Shown piece after piece: positions 1 through 5,619 of a stretch of 5,619 nucleotides of DNA. A program made the position numbers and the translations under genes. Under the pieces are notes generated by a model. That model was not told the origin of the DNA, made no database searches, and saw only the letters and a program-made list of their open reading frames with translations. Position 1 is the first letter of the stretch. Every line of letters starts with the position of its first letter. The DNA comes from Rudanella sp. (GTDB lineage: Bacteria > Bacteroidota > Bacteroidia > Cytophagales > Spirosomataceae): NCBI GenBank assembly GCA_026785985.1, contig JAJAYX010000265.1, positions 1-5,619 on the forward strand, given 5' to 3'.

Positions 1-140
1 AGACGCAATCCTTTGCGTCTCAGGCACCGGATGGCAGCGTACTCGTCTCAGGCACCGGATGGCAGCGTACCTCGTCTCAGGCACCGGACAACTATTTCGT
101 TTGTATTGCTGTCGCATCTGAGACGCAAAGGATTGCGTCT
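1..140. repeat. Composite inverted repeat with hairpin-forming arms
   Basis: Bases 1-23 are the exact reverse complement of bases 118-140, a 23-bp perfect inverted repeat separated by 94 bp. Each arm also folds on itself: AGACGCAA, a 4-base loop (TCCT on the left, AGGA on the right), then TTGCGTCT. The left arm begins at the window edge, so the element may extend further left. It lies 70 bp beyond the stop codon of the GH30 gene and contains no credible gene. Palindromic elements with AGACGC/GCGTCT ends are, as I recall, scattered in Bacteroidota and cyanobacterial genomes, so this is probably an interspersed REP- or MITE-like element. The hairpins might also act as a 3' end or RNA-stabilising structure for the GH30 transcript, although no T-run follows them. 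No transposase is present. Confidence 0.8.
17..88. repeat. Short tandem repeat, 28-29 bp unit, about 2.5 copies
   Basis: Three head-to-tail copies of a unit that starts GTCTCAGGCACCGGA are visible: 17-44 (28 bp), 45-73 (29 bp, with one extra C near its end) and a partial 15-bp copy at 74-88. The first copy begins inside the left arm of the larger inverted repeat, so the array probably arose by duplication of the arm's inner edge plus adjoining bases. Copies are contiguous with no spacers, which rules out a CRISPR array. The sequence after the third copy (89-117) is unrelated to the unit. The 28/29-bp unit length is not a multiple of three throughout, consistent with non-coding DNA. Confidence 0.85.
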
Positions 141-209
141 CTACGTGAATCATCACCATATTCAACCCAATGGCAAAGGTAACGTGAAGCAAGCCACCGT
201 CGAAATGCC

Positions 210-1637
210 TTACCAAATATACGTACCAACGGCTCCGGTTGGCAACGAGGTGCTTACTAACACGCCTTTTTCGCGGATGCTGAACGGTTGGGTAAACTCT
301 GTAGCATTCAGTACAATCAGCACGTTACGGCCATCGGGCGTTTTGAACGCTACATTAGGCAGCGCATCCGAGGTATTGGATTGAATACGAACGGACCCCG
401 GCCGCACAAATTTGGATGCTACGGCCACAATATAGTACGCTGGGTTACGCGTCACCGTGTTGCCATTCAGCGTTATGGCCCCGAGGCATTCCGTACATCC
501 ACCCGGCGTATGGGGTTCCTGTTTGGGATCGGCCGCCAGGTTCCATTCCAGCACCGCCCGACTCCAGTTGCGGGTTGCCCCAATAATGAGGTTTTTAACG
601 TGCCAGCCCAGATCGCCTTTCAGATTACCGGGGGCGCCAATCCATTGCTCAGTGAAATACAGGTTTTTGTCGGGATGCGCATTATGCACCTCCGTCAGTG
701 CCGTAACCGGGCCGCCATACAGGTGAAACGCCGACCCATCGACGTATTTCCGGGCTTCAATATCATTCAAAATTGAGATCGGGTAGTCTGGACGGTCGGC
801 GTTGTGGTCGTACAGAATGATTTTAGTATCGAGACCCGCTGCATTGAAAGCAGGCCCCAGGCTTTTTTTGATAAACGTAGCCTGCTCCTGGGGAAGCATC
901 AGCAAACTGGGGTTGTTTCCGGGGTGCAAAGGCTCATTCTGAATCGTAACGGCGTCAATTCTGATACCCTCGGCCTTCATTCCCTTGATATATTTTACAA
1001 AATACTGGGCGTAGGCATCGTAATACTCCGGCTTCAGGCTACCTCCTTTCGCATTGTTGTTGGTTTTCATCCAGGCTGGTGGCGACCAGGGCGACCCTAA
1101 AATCCGAATGGTTGGGTCGATGGCTAAAATGGCTTTCGGAATCGGAATCAGGTAGGTTCGATCTGGGTCCAGTGAAAACTTATCCAGCCTGACATCGGTC
1201 TGCCCATCCGGCAAATCGTCGTACGAAAAGACCCGGTCGTCTAGGTCCGATGCGCCAATACTAACTCTCAGGTAGCTGACTCCAATGCTATTGCCCTCCG
1301 TCGAAAACAATTCCCGCAATAATGCCGCCTTGGTGTTCGCATCCATACGACTCAGGAGCATAGCACTGCCCCCTGTTAGTGTGTAGCCAAACCCGTCGAT
1401 AGACTGAAATTGCTGTGTTTCATCAATGTCGATGGTCGGGTTCTGATTGGTTGAAGTGCTGAACGGAAGGGGTCCCGGTTGCTTCACGAACAGGGCCGAG
1501 CGATCCGGGTTCGTTAGCCAGACCTCTACGGCCCCCGATGCGCTTTGCAAGCCTGGACTTCGTTGACAGCCAGCTAACAGGCTCAGAACAATGACAATAT
1601 ATAGTGCAGTGAATTTCTGAAAAGGTCGGACTCGCAT
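210..1637 (-). CDS. Glycoside hydrolase family 30 (GH30) lipoprotein
   Basis: A 475-aa retaining glycosidase of family GH30 (glucosylceramidase / beta-1,6-glucanase type), expected to cleave beta-linked glucosyl or related glycans in the periplasm or at the outer membrane. The chosen start is the ATG at 1635-1637: it is followed at once by a lipoprotein signal (MRVRPFQKFTALYIVIVLSLLAGC) with the modified Cys at residue 24. The frame stays open upstream to a TTG at 1724, but that would bury the signal behind 29 residues. GH30 signatures in order: SIDGFGYTLTG near 79-89, YLRVSIGASD near 122-131, SPWSPPAWMKTN near 182-193, acid/base Glu235 in TIQNEP, and nucleophile Glu330 in YFTEQ. A small beta domain follows (about 395-475), usual for GH30. 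The CTEC stretch near 381-384 and the WNLA motif suggest subfamily 1 or 3; I cannot decide which, so the substrate is open. The acidic outer-membrane export motif often seen after the lipid-bearing Cys in Bacteroidota is absent. It is divergent from the DUF1080 gene. Confidence 0.92.
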   Translation of the reverse strand: MRVRPFQKFTALYIVIVLSLLAGCQRSPGLQSASGAVEVWLTNPDRSALFVKQPGPLPFSTSTNQNPTIDIDETQQFQSIDGFGYTLTGGSAMLLSRMDANTKAALLRELFSTEGNSIGVSYLRVSIGASDLDDRVFSYDDLPDGQTDVRLDKFSLDPDRTYLIPIPKAILAIDPTIRILGSPWSPPAWMKTNNNAKGGSLKPEYYDAYAQYFVKYIKGMKAEGIRIDAVTIQNEPLHPGNNPSLLMLPQEQATFIKKSLGPAFNAAGLDTKIILYDHNADRPDYPISILNDIEARKYVDGSAFHLYGGPVTALTEVHNAHPDKNLYFTEQWIGAPGNLKGDLGWHVKNLIIGATRNWSRAVLEWNLAADPKQEPHTPGGCTECLGAITLNGNTVTRNPAYYIVAVASKFVRPGSVRIQSNTSDALPNVAFKTPDGRNVLIVLNATEFTQPFSIREKGVLVSTSLPTGAVGTYIW

Positions 1638-1695
1638 CGGTGGGGCCTGGTTTTGAAACGATATAATTCTATCTACAAACAAGAGACTTCCAGAA

Positions 1696-1715
1696 CCTGT
1701 TTCTAACCGAACAGG
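1696..1715. promoter_or_regulatory. Inverted repeat in the divergent intergenic region
   Basis: CCTGTT and AACAGG form perfect 6-bp arms around an 8-base spacer. The repeat lies 58 bp upstream of the GH30 start codon and about 55 bp upstream of the -33 element of the DUF1080 promoter, where an operator acting on GH30 could sit. No convincing TAnnTTTG box was found for the GH30 gene itself. Six-bp arms can arise by chance, so this is a weak candidate. Confidence 0.25.
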
Positions 1716-1769
1716 CCTTAGCAAAACGACCTAAATCTAACTTGCTTGTCTGTAGCCACACTTTATTTA

Positions 1770-1885: not shown

Positions 1886-2578
1886 ATGAAACGAACCTTC
1901 TTTTTGGTTGGACTTTTGTCGGCCACACTGACGTTGGCCGGTCTGCCCGTGAAAAAAGCCAAGTGGACAACCCTCTTCGATGGTAAGACGACCACCGGCT
2001 GGCACCGTTACCTGAAAACCGACACCAACGGATGGCGCGTGGATAATGGCACCCTCACCACCGATGGCAAACAGGGTGATCTGGTCACGGATAAAGAATA
2101 CGGAAACTTTGATCTGGAGTTCGAGTTCAAAGTACAGCCCAAGGGCAACAGTGGCGTAATTTATAAAGTGCAGGAAGATCCCCAGAATAGCCAGCCGTAT
2201 TATTCAGGGCCTGAATTTCAGGTGATCGACGACAAAGGCTACGAATGGCGCGACAAAGAAGGTAAGCTCATTCAACTGAACAACAACCAGTTAACCGGAG
2301 CAAACTACGACATGATTCCCCCCGGCGACCTCAGTGCCGTGAAACCAGCCGGCGAATGGAACAAAGGCCGGATTTCGATTCAGAACAACCACGTTGAACA
2401 CTGGCTGAATGGTAAAAAAATGGTTGAATACGATTATGGCTCCGATGCCTGGAAAGCAATGGTCGCCAAAAGCAAATTCTCCAAATGGGCCTACGCCACG
2501 CCCCATGCCAAAGGCAAAATTGCCCTCCAGGGCCACGGCGACGTTGCCTGGTATCGGAATATAAAGATTAAGGAGTAG
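1886..2578 (+). CDS. Secreted DUF1080 (3-keto-disaccharide hydrolase family) protein
   Basis: A 230-aa exported protein with a single DUF1080 / 3-keto-disaccharide hydrolase domain (PF06439), a concanavalin-like beta-sandwich common in Bacteroidota and Planctomycetota. The family name comes from work on 3-keto-glycoside cleavage, but most members are uncharacterised, so the substrate is not known. Residues 1-19 form a signal peptide (MKRTFFLVGLLSATLTLAG) with no lipobox Cys, implying a soluble periplasmic or secreted protein. Family motifs seen: TLFDGKTTTGWH (29-40), YGNFDLEFEFKV (72-83), GNSGVIYKV (87-95), GPEFQVIDD (108-116), HWLNGKK (172-178) and the terminal GHGDVAWYRNIKIKE (216-230). Length is typical of single-domain members. 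The ATG follows an A/T-rich leader without a Shine-Dalgarno site, usual for the phylum. It has its own promoter and terminator, so it is probably monocistronic. Divergence from the GH30 gene hints at a shared role in glycan breakdown, but this is inference. Confidence 0.93.
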   Translation: MKRTFFLVGLLSATLTLAGLPVKKAKWTTLFDGKTTTGWHRYLKTDTNGWRVDNGTLTTDGKQGDLVTDKEYGNFDLEFEFKVQPKGNSGVIYKVQEDPQNSQPYYSGPEFQVIDDKGYEWRDKEGKLIQLNNNQLTGANYDMIPPGDLSAVKPAGEWNKGRISIQNNHVEHWLNGKKMVEYDYGSDAWKAMVAKSKFSKWAYATPHAKGKIALQGHGDVAWYRNIKIKE

Positions 2579-2590
2579 GGCCTAAAAAGC

Positions 2591-2627
2591 AAAAAAGGGA
2601 GCGACCGAAAAGTCGCTCCCTTTTTTT
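2591..2627. terminator. Strong intrinsic terminator, probably bidirectional
   Basis: A perfect 9-bp stem (GGGAGCGAC at 2597-2605, GTCGCTCCC at 2612-2620) closes a 6-base loop, CGAAAA. It is followed by seven T (2621-2627) and preceded by six A (2591-2596). It begins 12 bp after the DUF1080 stop codon. Because the A-tract becomes a T-tract on the other strand, the same structure can stop transcripts of the minus-strand tyrosinase unit that converge on it. Confidence 0.92.
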
Positions 2628-2790: not shown

Positions 2791-3324
2791 TTACTCAACC
2801 GAACTAAGTCGGATTCGACCACCACTAAGTTGCCCGGCTTCCTGAGCCGCTTTGCCGGTTGGTAATATATTCCCTCGAAACACAAGACTCACAAAACAGC
2901 GGTTGAGCGACGCGCCCCGCCAGTGATGAACCGCTTCGGTAGCGTCTAAGCAGAGCGATTGGGGTTTGGTAGATGCCGTCAGTTGATAGGTGTCGAGGAC
3001 ACCCACAAAGGCCGGGCTTTCGGGTTTAAGATGGGATACGAGCGTGGTTTGTTGGGTGAGATAAACTTCATAAACACCCTCTGGATTTCTGCTAAGCCGT
3101 ACTGAATCAAAGCAAAGGGCGTATTGATAATGAGGGCGGTATGTTCTGGTCTGTGGAGTGGTCAGGGCAAGCTGAACGCCCGGACGTTGCCGGCTCAGGA
3201 GCCACGGCCGGGTCTGTGCAGCCAGCCGCACCGAATCGGAAACGGCCTTTCCGTTGCCGCCCGAAGGCAGCAACGGTGAAGACCCAAACCAGGTTGTACT
3301 CATTAGAAGAAGCCAGAGAAGCAT
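2791..3324 (-). CDS. Secreted free-standing tyrosinase C-terminal (KFDV-like) domain protein
   Basis: A 177-aa protein of unknown function that I recognise as a divergent paralogue of the last 125 or so residues of the tyrosinase encoded just upstream. Shared motifs come in the same order and at similar spacing: PEGVYEVYL (81-89; PEGVVEVYM in the tyrosinase), FVGVLD (106-111, identical), DATEAV (127-132, identical) and FRGN (149-152; TRGN). It has no copper-binding His pattern and no catalytic domain. The N-terminus (MLLWLLLMSTTWFGSS) looks like a signal peptide, though it lacks the usual basic residue; a second ATG at 3301-3303 would remove most of it. Three Cys (71, 125, 143) in the mature part are not matched at the same positions in the tyrosinase. 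The start codon lies 11 bp after the tyrosinase stop, so the two are very probably cotranscribed. In plant polyphenol oxidases this domain covers the active site; a stand-alone copy could act in trans as a lid or copper-loading partner. That role is inference. Confidence 0.8.
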   Translation of the reverse strand: MLLWLLLMSTTWFGSSPLLPSGGNGKAVSDSVRLAAQTRPWLLSRQRPGVQLALTTPQTRTYRPHYQYALCFDSVRLSRNPEGVYEVYLTQQTTLVSHLKPESPAFVGVLDTYQLTASTKPQSLCLDATEAVHHWRGASLNRCFVSLVFRGNILPTGKAAQEAGQLSGGRIRLSSVE

Positions 3325-3335
3325 GTCGATTGTGC

Positions 3336-4799
3336 TTATTGAATTACCCGGTTAATAACGAAATTAATGCCGTTTACGCGCACCGTGCCATCTGCTTTTA
3401 CCGGGCGGCCATTGAGCGTGTTTCCGCGTGTAAAAAACGTGAGTTCAGCCCGTTGCAGATCATCCACAGTCAGACCCAGTTTCCGCACAGCCTCCGTAGC
3501 ATCAACGTCCACGGCTTTTGGCGCGTGTCGGTGGGCTTTGGATGGCATGGCTGTGAACAAATCGAGCACCCCCACAAACGAGCGACTTTGCGGATTTGGT
3601 TGTTCAGTACGGGGCAGGTTCATATACACTTCCACCACGCCTTCGGGTTGTTTATCAACTTGAATCCCTTCGAGTTCAATAATCAACCGATCCGATTTGC
3701 CATCATTTGCAAACTGAAACCGTTCCAGTTTGTTGGTGCGTTTTACCTGCTCGAACTGGGCTTTGTTGGTTCGCTCAAACGGCACACGGGTAAGTTCGGC
3801 TAAGGTGCCAAGGGGAGGTATTTTCACCAACTGAATCTTTGTAAATTTCCATTGTTGCCAGTTTGCAAGAATATTACAGGGCAGTTGTACCGGAAAATCG
3901 TAGCGATAGTTGAGCGATACCGCCGTGTTCAGCACCTGGCTGGCAGTCATGACGACGGCGGCTCCGGTTTCGTTGAAAAACGTGTAACTTTTGTTCATCC
4001 AGGGACTATTGGCGGCCGCCGTTGGATTCGACCGCCCTCCGCATTGCCGCAGCCATTGCTCCCACAAACGGTCGATGTTGGTGTGATGGAGCCAGAAAAC
4101 CGGATCCAAAGCAGCCCGATTTATAGACGACATATTGCCGCCAATGGCCCCGTGCAAGGCACCATGTGGCCCTTCGAGCGCACTGTTGAACGAGAAATAA
4201 TTGATGTTAACGGCGGCAGTCAGGGCGGTGGCAATGCTCACCATCGGCGCATTGGGCAAGCTACCGCCCGCATTGATCGACGCGGCCCGCGTGTCGAACA
4301 GCACATTGCCGGGTGTGTTGGCCCGGTAAGCGGCATGGAGTACCGGGTTAGTCTGGTAGTTCCAGTAGGGTAATGTCAGGTTGGGGTTGCCTGATTTAGC
4401 GCGGAGAATACGCTCGAAAAAGTAAAGATACATCCGATGCCAGGCCAGAAAAAACTGGCTACCATGCGTACACGAATTCCAGGAAGGCAGGTTGTTAGTC
4501 AGGAGGGTGCCATGAATGGCGGCCTGATACTGCCAACTGGTTTTGTTGGTTACGGGCAGGGCTTTCATGGCGGCAATGCCCGTTTTGATGGAGGCAATGT
4601 CGGCGGCTGACAACGAATTGACGTTTCGGCGAACCATAACGGCCTGTGGCGCAATCATTTCGGGCGAGAAAGGCATGGCATCGGCTATAGCGGGGCTGCT
4701 CAGACAGTTAGTGATGGCCACAGGGGCAGGGCTGTCGGCTGTGTTACCGCCCCAAAGCGACATCAACAGGGCAAGGACGGGTATAAGAATGGTTTTCAT
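3336..4799 (-). CDS. Secreted tyrosinase / polyphenol oxidase with C-terminal shielding domain
   Basis: A 487-aa type-3 copper oxidase that would oxidise phenols and/or catechols to quinones outside the cytoplasm. Residues 1-20 are a signal peptide. The CuA ligands are His96 (AAIHG), His112 (CTHGSQFF) and His121 (AWHRMYLYFFER). The CuB ligands are His212 and His216 (EGPHGALHG) and His239 in DPVFWLHHTNID, which fits the tyrosinase signature DPxF-x3-H-x3-D. Cys110 two residues before His112 gives the C-x-H arrangement that forms a thioether bridge in fungal tyrosinases. Glu209 is placed like the 'waterkeeper' Glu, while the residue after the first CuB His is Gly213 rather than the Asn linked to monophenolase activity, so catechol oxidase activity may dominate. 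Residues about 370-485 resemble the plant PPO1_KFDV domain (ELEGIQVDKQPEGVVEVYMN, FVGVLDLF, DATEAVRKLG, GTVRVNGINF), which shields the active site until removed. There is no tyrosinase-like caddie gene; the next gene encodes a lone copy of this C-terminal domain. Confidence 0.95.
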   Translation of the reverse strand: MKTILIPVLALLMSLWGGNTADSPAPVAITNCLSSPAIADAMPFSPEMIAPQAVMVRRNVNSLSAADIASIKTGIAAMKALPVTNKTSWQYQAAIHGTLLTNNLPSWNSCTHGSQFFLAWHRMYLYFFERILRAKSGNPNLTLPYWNYQTNPVLHAAYRANTPGNVLFDTRAASINAGGSLPNAPMVSIATALTAAVNINYFSFNSALEGPHGALHGAIGGNMSSINRAALDPVFWLHHTNIDRLWEQWLRQCGGRSNPTAAANSPWMNKSYTFFNETGAAVVMTASQVLNTAVSLNYRYDFPVQLPCNILANWQQWKFTKIQLVKIPPLGTLAELTRVPFERTNKAQFEQVKRTNKLERFQFANDGKSDRLIIELEGIQVDKQPEGVVEVYMNLPRTEQPNPQSRSFVGVLDLFTAMPSKAHRHAPKAVDVDATEAVRKLGLTVDDLQRAELTFFTRGNTLNGRPVKADGTVRVNGINFVINRVIQ

Positions 4800-5001: not shown

Positions 5002-5619
5002 CTAATGCAGCGGCCTTCCCTTTACCTGCCCGCCCCGTGCATCGTCGATGCCGTGCTGAATGATGAAGGCGTTGGCGTCTATTAGCTCCACGGCATCGCG
5101 GATATTGCTCAGTTCTAAGCGCGTTACCACCGAGTATAGCACGTCGGTGTCTTGCCGATCCTGGCCGCGTTTGCCGTATCCTTTTTGCCCTTTCAACACG
5201 GTAACGCCCTTTTTCAGGTCTTCGGTGAGCATCAGTCGGATGGTTTCGGCCTGATCCGACACGATAATCACGGCGGTGTATTCTTCGATACCATGCACAA
5301 TGAAATCAATGGCTTTCGACGCGCCAAAGTAGGTAATCATAGAATACAGGGCCACGTCGATGCCGAGGAAGAAAGCCGCTGCTCCGAAAATAAATACGTT
5401 GATTATCAGGATAATATCACCCACTCGCAGCATCGCCGACCGCCGACTGAGCAGCAGGGCGGCTGCTTCGGTGCCATCCAGCACGGCCCCGCCCCGCATG
5501 GCCAATCCAATACCGGCACCGATGAACGCCCCCCCAAATATGGCCGTGAGCAACAGGTCGGGGGTAACATCGGGGAAGGGAACAACCGCCAGGCAGAGAG
5601 CTAAACCGACGATGCCCAA
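5002..5619 (-). CDS. YitT-family membrane protein (DUF161-DUF2179), C-terminal part
   Basis: The gene runs off the right edge, so only the last 204-205 residues are present and the start codon is outside; the TTG at the edge is not a credible start. The visible part begins in hydrophobic segments: about 2-15, 21-40 with the conserved GGAFIGAGIGLAMRGGAVLDGTE, 66-87 and 88-109. A soluble C-terminal DUF2179 domain follows (about 113-192), with KGVTVLKGQKGYG near 137-149 and VVTRLELSNIRDAVELIDANAFI near 164-186. This arrangement is standard for YitT proteins, inner-membrane proteins of unknown transport or sensing function. The insert after the glycine-rich turn (KRGQDRQDTDVLYSVV) is usual in the family. 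It is on the same strand as the tyrosinase but separated by 202 bp with several palindromes, so a shared function is not implied. Confidence 0.93.
   Translation of the reverse strand: MGIVGLALCLAVVPFPDVTPDLLLTAIFGGAFIGAGIGLAMRGGAVLDGTEAAALLLSRRSAMLRVGDIILIINVFIFGAAAFFLGIDVALYSMITYFGASKAIDFIVHGIEEYTAVIIVSDQAETIRLMLTEDLKKGVTVLKGQKGYGKRGQDRQDTDVLYSVVTRLELSNIRDAVELIDANAFIIQHGIDDARGGQVKGRPLH

Follow-up and report, generated by a model that had tools for sequence, protein, structure and literature searches.

A free-standing paralogue of a predicted tyrosinase lid, encoded beside the lidded enzyme

Lidded tyrosinases, caddie proteins, and the Rudanella locus

The closest described relatives of the system reported here are tyrosinases and polyphenol oxidases in which the lid lies within the enzyme itself, as in HcTyr1 of Hahella sp. 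CCB MM4 (PDB 8b74), the Ralstonia enzyme (7xio), and the plant polyphenol oxidases (6els, 6hqi, and 4z11-4z14). We describe here a locus in a Rudanella sp. genome (GenBank assembly GCA_026785985.1, contig JAJAYX010000265.1; the window is the whole 5,619-nucleotide stretch analysed) in which a gene for such a lidded tyrosinase is followed by a small gene for a second lid that stands alone. No second, free-standing lid gene is mentioned for lidded tyrosinases in the extracts of PMC11609597, PMC11608171, and PMC10526336 used here, and every paper cited below by PMC number is likewise represented by extracts. The isolated C-terminal domain of apple MdPPO1 (PDB 6elt and 6elv) is a cleavage product or a laboratory construct with no gene of its own. 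Among the matches listed from the open-licence literature, judged by title and abstract, no paper has a free-standing lid gene as its subject. Lidded tyrosinases and caddies are both known, and within this literature a natural second lid, encoded by its own gene beside a tyrosinase that is still lidded, seems to be new.

The locus also resembles the MelC1/MelC2 system of Streptomyces (PF06236), where a small separate protein is encoded in one operon with the tyrosinase and places Tyr98 in the copper site (PMC6312201, PMC11608171). The Streptomyces tyrosinase is itself lidless (PMC11608171), whereas the window tyrosinase carries a lid. The small protein described here also departs from MelC1 in having neither a match to its sequence nor its conserved copper ligands. 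The gene order is reversed as well, the small gene lying downstream of the tyrosinase gene whereas the MelC1 gene lies upstream of its partner. The main features are as follows.

3336..4799, minus strand: lidded tyrosinase gene, 487 residues, from the open reading frame (ORF) call; product with a hydrophobic N-terminus
About residues 55-260 of the tyrosinase: type-3 copper catalytic domain
Residues 264-305 of the tyrosinase: PPO1_DWL segment
About residues 316-487 of the tyrosinase: C-terminal lid domain, placed by homology and model
3325..3335, minus strand: 11-base spacer from the tyrosinase gene to the small gene, from ORF coordinates
2791..3324, minus strand: free-standing lid paralogue gene, 177 residues; product possibly exported (hydrophobic N-terminus)

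The two ORFs and the 11 bases between them, as given in an earlier note made from the letters of the window, are confirmed, and the two genes are likely to share one transcript.

A free-standing paralogue with a single old origin

By sequence comparison, the 177-residue protein and the C-terminal domain of the neighbouring tyrosinase are paralogues, the former free-standing. BLASTP aligns the two proteins with 32 identities in 101 columns (32%, E=3e-10), and their Smith-Waterman score of 102 is reached by none of 2000 shuffles (mean 32.9, maximum 57); a profile-profile comparison of the small protein with the tyrosinase C-terminal domain gives a probability of 99.0 and E=3.4e-18 over 110 columns. 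The four shared blocks that the earlier note had picked out can be located in both proteins and in the same order: PEGVYEVY at residues 81-88 of the small protein and PEGVVEVY at 385-392 of the tyrosinase, FVGVLD at 106-111 and 408-413, DATEAV at 127-132 and 433-438, and RGN at 150-152 and 458-460.

The tyrosinase matches PF00264 at E=9.9e-37 and carries PPO1_DWL; His96, 121, 212, 216, 238, and 239 are invariant in 60 sequences, with the remaining CuA His lacking one fixed column. The name KFDV, which the earlier note uses for the plant lid, is only roughly right here: of the two C-terminal-domain families of such enzymes, the domain falls below the cut-off of PPO1_KFDV (PF12143; 19.1 vs 26 bits) and passes that of DUF7868 (PF25271; 28.9 vs 25 bits). 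The small protein has no catalytic domain, as had been claimed, and no match to Pfam or NCBIfam models at E<=1; membership in PPO1_KFDV, DUF7868, or MelC1 is therefore rejected. Conserved copper-binding His, Cys, or Met residues are a feature of MelC1 caddies, and among the 26 rows of the small-protein alignment no column has His, Cys, or internal Met in half or more of the rows, Met1 being the only such residue. Because it combines this lack with the missing match, the small protein is not a MelC1 caddie by sequence. PF06236 is found in none of the six genomes with the pair, although 14 control genomes gave no match either and the absence is no evidence.

An AlphaFold2 model of the small protein (predicted local distance difference test score, pLDDT, of 84.5) has a lid-type jelly roll within the lid-superfamily fold, and among known structures it most resembles lidded tyrosinases and plant polyphenol oxidases. 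The small protein is thus predicted to have the same fold as the tyrosinase C-terminal domain, bearing out the structural similarity on which the earlier note had staked its reading. MelC1 is not among the fold matches listed for it, which is uninformative either way, and sequence searches of the PDB with the lid alone or with the small-protein profile returned only unrelated leucine-rich proteins and myosin. The signal peptide that the earlier note assigned to the small protein is plausible, the N-terminus being hydrophobic and residues 7-29 of the model having pLDDT <50. We also note that the N-termini of several free-standing lids (L037, L039, P0019, P0021, P0022, and P0023) contain a Cys within a loosely defined lipobox-like pattern, so that in some lineages the protein may, from its sequence, be a lipoprotein; the small protein of the window has no match to this pattern.

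The pair recurs beyond the window. Among 222 genomes of the family, the window's own included, the tyrosinase query matches 14 and finds full-length relatives above 50% identity in three, the window, Runella aurantiaca, and Pseudarcicella hirudinis, each of which has the small gene. In a 294-genome sample of the family of a Pseudobacter metagenome-assembled genome (MAG), a full-length tyrosinase relative is present only in that MAG, and 228 genomes of its order add one more (G1251), with the small gene 115 bases downstream; samples of 395 phylum genomes and 222 order genomes hold no further full-length relative. Apart from the window and the centre MAG, the small gene is present in three of three cases found with the tyrosinase query. 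Conversely, scanning named genome contigs with the small-protein alignment gave four loci (Runella, Pseudarcicella, the Pseudobacter MAG, and a Bacteroidota MAG), all four with a tyrosinase directly upstream. The small gene therefore follows the tyrosinase at all six known loci, in two orders, with spacers of 8, 2, 5, 4, and 115 bases in the five relatives and of 2-11 bases in five of the six loci overall. The six partner tyrosinases are all full length and each itself matches the small-protein profile, so that each has kept its own lid. The conservation across genera and orders is what the earlier note would lead one to expect, neither absence of the pair nor frequent decay of the small gene being seen.

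Across the ORFs of all 114 loci, a profile search finds the free-standing lid solely at the six pair loci. Outside these loci, 53 tyrosinase-like places were counted (omitting two that were listed with no locus), 51 with an ORF matching the tyrosinase profile, and none of the 46 that have both such an ORF and at least 300 bases of downstream DNA has a free-standing lid beside it. Inspection of the ORF lists by eye reveals no wider gene neighbourhood shared by the six loci, and nothing beyond the two genes seems to belong to the conserved unit. Its distribution is patchy: among the 395 phylum genomes the small gene occurs only in the window and Runella, the three other genomes of the window's genus match neither gene, and the small protein had no match in a search of plasmids.

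Several tyrosinases outside the pair loci are worth recording. The nearest relative seen without the pair (L052 in G704) is 46% identical over query residues 66-306 and has its own C-terminal domain with no free-standing lid adjoining. P0124, among the 120 listed of 1511 tyrosinase homologues, lies on a 623-kb contig; this 300-residue tyrosinase covers 59% of the window enzyme at 67% identity and has no listed lid domain. The Chitinophagaceae sample includes tyrosinase frames of 310 residues in four genomes (L055-L058) and one of 279 residues at a contig end in another genome (L054), all too short for a lid domain, and the profile search of downstream DNA found no free-standing lid beside L055-L058.

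Trees place the free-standing lids in one group. With 20 free-standing lids, 34 tyrosinase lids, and four distant lids, the group has a Shimodaira-Hasegawa-like approximate likelihood ratio test (SH-aLRT) value of 91, rising to 100 without the four long-branch distant rows. These are 20 of the 26 small proteins (P0001, P0004, P0006, P0007, P0008, and P0022 were dropped as close copies) and 34 of the 63 tyrosinase lids, four distant tyrosinases having been lost where no C-terminal piece was cut by pattern or no ORF was present. Recent duplication from the protein's own partner is rejected, since forcing the window's small protein together with the tyrosinase lid of its own lineage gives p=0.0029 in the approximately unbiased (AU) test, a somewhat optimistic value as the group was defined after the first tree had been seen. 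Because the free-standing lids form one group and the own-lineage grouping is rejected, these sequence trees show that they split off once, long ago, and have been paired with the tyrosinase ever since. Distances between small proteins correlate with those between catalytic domains (r=0.71 for nine pairs, of which four were matched solely by equal length of the longest contigs carrying the two proteins; 0.56 without one near-copy; 0.66 for the five pairs seen in DNA); as expected, this reflects co-inheritance of the genes and says nothing on contact between the proteins. The derivation of the small protein from the lid domain by duplication, suggested by the earlier note, is supported alike by BLASTP, profile-profile comparison, and trees.

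A predicted plug column and proposed models for a second lid

In the HcTyr1 structure a placeholder residue of the lid, Phe397, points to the copper site, and enzyme that has shed the lid is about tenfold more active (PMC11609597). The codons that bear on the corresponding position, and on the residues that set the two kinds of lid apart, are these.

3555..3557, minus strand: codon of Phe415, the predicted cis plug (placeholder), in FVGVLDLF of the tyrosinase
2986..2988, minus strand: codon of Tyr113, the predicted trans plug, in FVGVLDTY of the small protein
3061..3084, minus strand: codons of PEGVYEVY, small-protein residues 81-88, the top-conserved block
3070-3072, minus strand: codon of small-protein Tyr85, which separates free-standing from built-in lids
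2878-2880, minus strand: codon of small-protein Phe149, which separates free-standing from built-in lids

In an alignment with 8b74, the profile of five C-terminal parts verified in DNA sets FVGVLDLF against FVGCIGLF, with Phe415 falling on chain position 397. The chain numbering matches that of the paper (residue 210 of the query corresponds to 209 of the chain, and His212 hence to the paper's His211), and the mapping agrees with the whole-length fold match between the window tyrosinase model and 8b74 and with short helices at 113-116 of the small-protein model and 414-417 of the tyrosinase model. The plug column is accordingly predicted, from this alignment, to sit over the copper site. It is Phe in 61 of 61 tyrosinases (60 of 60 in another comparison), all of them close relatives of the window enzyme, whereas by alignment the free-standing lids have Tyr, as MelC1 does, in 25 of 27, and Phe in two that form one branch. 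Two further positions separate the groups: Tyr85 is present in all 27 free-standing lids where all 61 tyrosinases have Val, Ile, or Met, and Phe149 in all 27 where 53 of 61 tyrosinases have Val; these two residues may pack together. Pro81, Gly83, Glu86, and Phe106 are also invariant in the 27. Segments 80-90 and 105-116 are the two most conserved of twelve in the small protein, and the former has a mean information of 3.55 vs 1.93 over residues 31-176.

We propose that the small protein acts in trans as a lid, docking on the copper site with Tyr113 where the cis lid is predicted to put Phe415, and that it aids the cis lid in leaving, a reading to which we give slightly less than even odds (about 0.47). 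Both proteins would be exported. The two lids would compete for the face that bears the copper site, and the trans lid would cap the enzyme while it is exported and loaded with copper and would help the cis lid to be cleaved or to leave. Tyr, in contrast to Phe, is a phenol, so that a Tyr plug could be oxidised by the copper-loaded enzyme, and oxidation would release the trans lid in parallel with what is reported for Tyr98 of the Streptomyces caddie. The small protein would act like a caddie or maturation factor from outside the caddie family. We favour such lid exchange because the Streptomyces Tyr98 is converted by the enzyme (to dopaquinone, which is partly that paper's inference) and the caddie then departs and aggregates (PMC6312201), because the plug residues given in PMC10526336 are Tyr for caddies and, among aromatic cis plugs, Phe (in V. 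spinosum and in two enzymes from fungi), and because self-cleavage of the apple polyphenol oxidase pro-enzyme is reported to go faster when the isolated lid is added in trans (PMC6563526); in view of this last precedent, activation is no less likely a role than capping. A more specific version, in which the oxidisable Tyr of the second lid ousts the inert Phe lid, guards copper loading, and is consumed and released at the first turnover of the enzyme, as a caddie evolved independently from a cis lid, is one that we hold tentatively and consider doubtful. For the caddie-like system envisaged by the earlier note, descent from the cis lid, the predicted fold, and the conserved pairing stand; membership in the MelC1 family does not, and the likeness is one of role only. 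The Phe/Tyr difference at the plug column and the apple precedent for a lid acting in trans go beyond what that note took into account.

A number of observations weigh against the lid-exchange reading. The tyrosinase is already lidded, so that a trans lid needs the cis lid to be displaced or cleaved first, and the plug mapping comes from a single profile alignment that is weak across the lid (0.8 bits). Tyr or Phe occupies the plug position in most known tyrosinases (PMC11609597), so that Tyr is not peculiar to trans lids and our confidence is slightly lowered; plant and Burkholderia lids have aliphatic plug residues (PMC10526336), and two of the 27 free-standing lids keep Phe. A His-rich stretch behind the plug (at least two His) occurs in three of 26 free-standing lids vs 51 of 60 tyrosinases. 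The free-standing lid is also fast-evolving, with 18-33% identity between most lineages vs 50-75% for the catalytic domain, which is loose for a tightly fitted partner. Finally, six loci make a small sample, and two of them were found via the small protein itself.

The main rival to lid exchange is that the small protein is purely an inhibitor or safety cap, which would re-cap tyrosinase whose lid has been cleaved and keep quinone production off near the cell, with no activation and its Tyr unoxidised. The predicted fold and plug column would be the same, a lipoprotein-like N-terminus, where the loose pattern occurs, would tether the cap to the cell envelope, and the cleaved apple lid remains bound and leaves the enzyme latent (PMC6563526); the Tyr of built-in lids in other tyrosinases (PMC11609597) also fits. 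However, a simple cap does not need the near-complete change in the clade from inert Phe to oxidisable Tyr, and the external apple lid sped cleavage (PMC6563526), and we regard a pure cap as unlikely. A role as a substrate- or cell-wall-binding module, in which a duplicated jelly roll lost its lid function and brings the enzyme to a polymer or surface, is to our minds improbable; jelly-roll folds are common in carbohydrate-binding proteins too, and this commonness counts against lid exchange as well. We think it quite improbable that the small protein is a strict copper-carrying caddie, binding copper and handing it to the tyrosinase as MelC1 does: the tandem gene order, likely export, and Tyr plug agree with such a role, but no His, Cys, or Met beyond Met1 recurs in half of the 26 rows at any column, and the lidded vsTyr acquires its copper with no caddie involved (PMC10526336). 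A neutral or decaying duplicate, an alternative raised by the earlier note to which the low identity between lineages might seem to point, is contradicted by open frames of 177-185 residues at all six loci, by eight close relatives all of 177-178 residues, by the six invariant positions, and by the one old origin with persistent pairing, and we give it almost no weight.

Surrounding sequence and significance

The remaining features of the window are these.

210-1724, minus strand: GH30-type glycoside hydrolase gene
1886-2578, plus strand: gene for a 3-keto-disaccharide hydrolase (PF06439) protein
2591..2626, found on the minus strand: terminator-like hairpin of 16 pairs from a consensus scan, between the tyrosinase/small-gene unit and the convergent 3-keto-disaccharide-hydrolase-type gene
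5002-5619, minus strand: YitT/DUF2179 membrane protein gene, upstream of the tyrosinase on the same strand across a 202-base gap

Terminator-like sites number three in the window vs 3.4 in shuffles, a count not above chance. By eye, in the ORF lists, neither the GH30-type nor the PF06439 neighbour was seen adjoining the pair at other loci. At the left contig end, window positions 1-141 form an inverted repeat with perfect 23-nucleotide arms at 1-23 and 118-140, enclosing a 27-nucleotide direct repeat present as two perfect copies plus a third at 67%; two more occurrences of the 27-mer lie at the extreme end of contig C565 of the same genome, and this repeat probably broke the assembly.

The activation of latent polyphenol oxidases in the cell is a standing question, and some lids, such as those of apple polyphenol oxidase and HcTyr1, cleave themselves off. 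Within the literature covered here, an effect of a lid in trans has so far been reported for the isolated plant domain in vitro only (PMC6563526). The natural pair makes a trans role testable, and the one-position difference between Phe and Tyr offers a sharp mutational handle. If the lid-exchange reading is true, caddies evolved on at least two occasions, on one of them from the lid of the enzyme itself, and a caddie derived from a cis lid reached the same Tyr solution as MelC1 of Streptomyces. It would also represent a new way of switching tyrosinases, and could provide a protein switch for tyrosinase biocatalysts.
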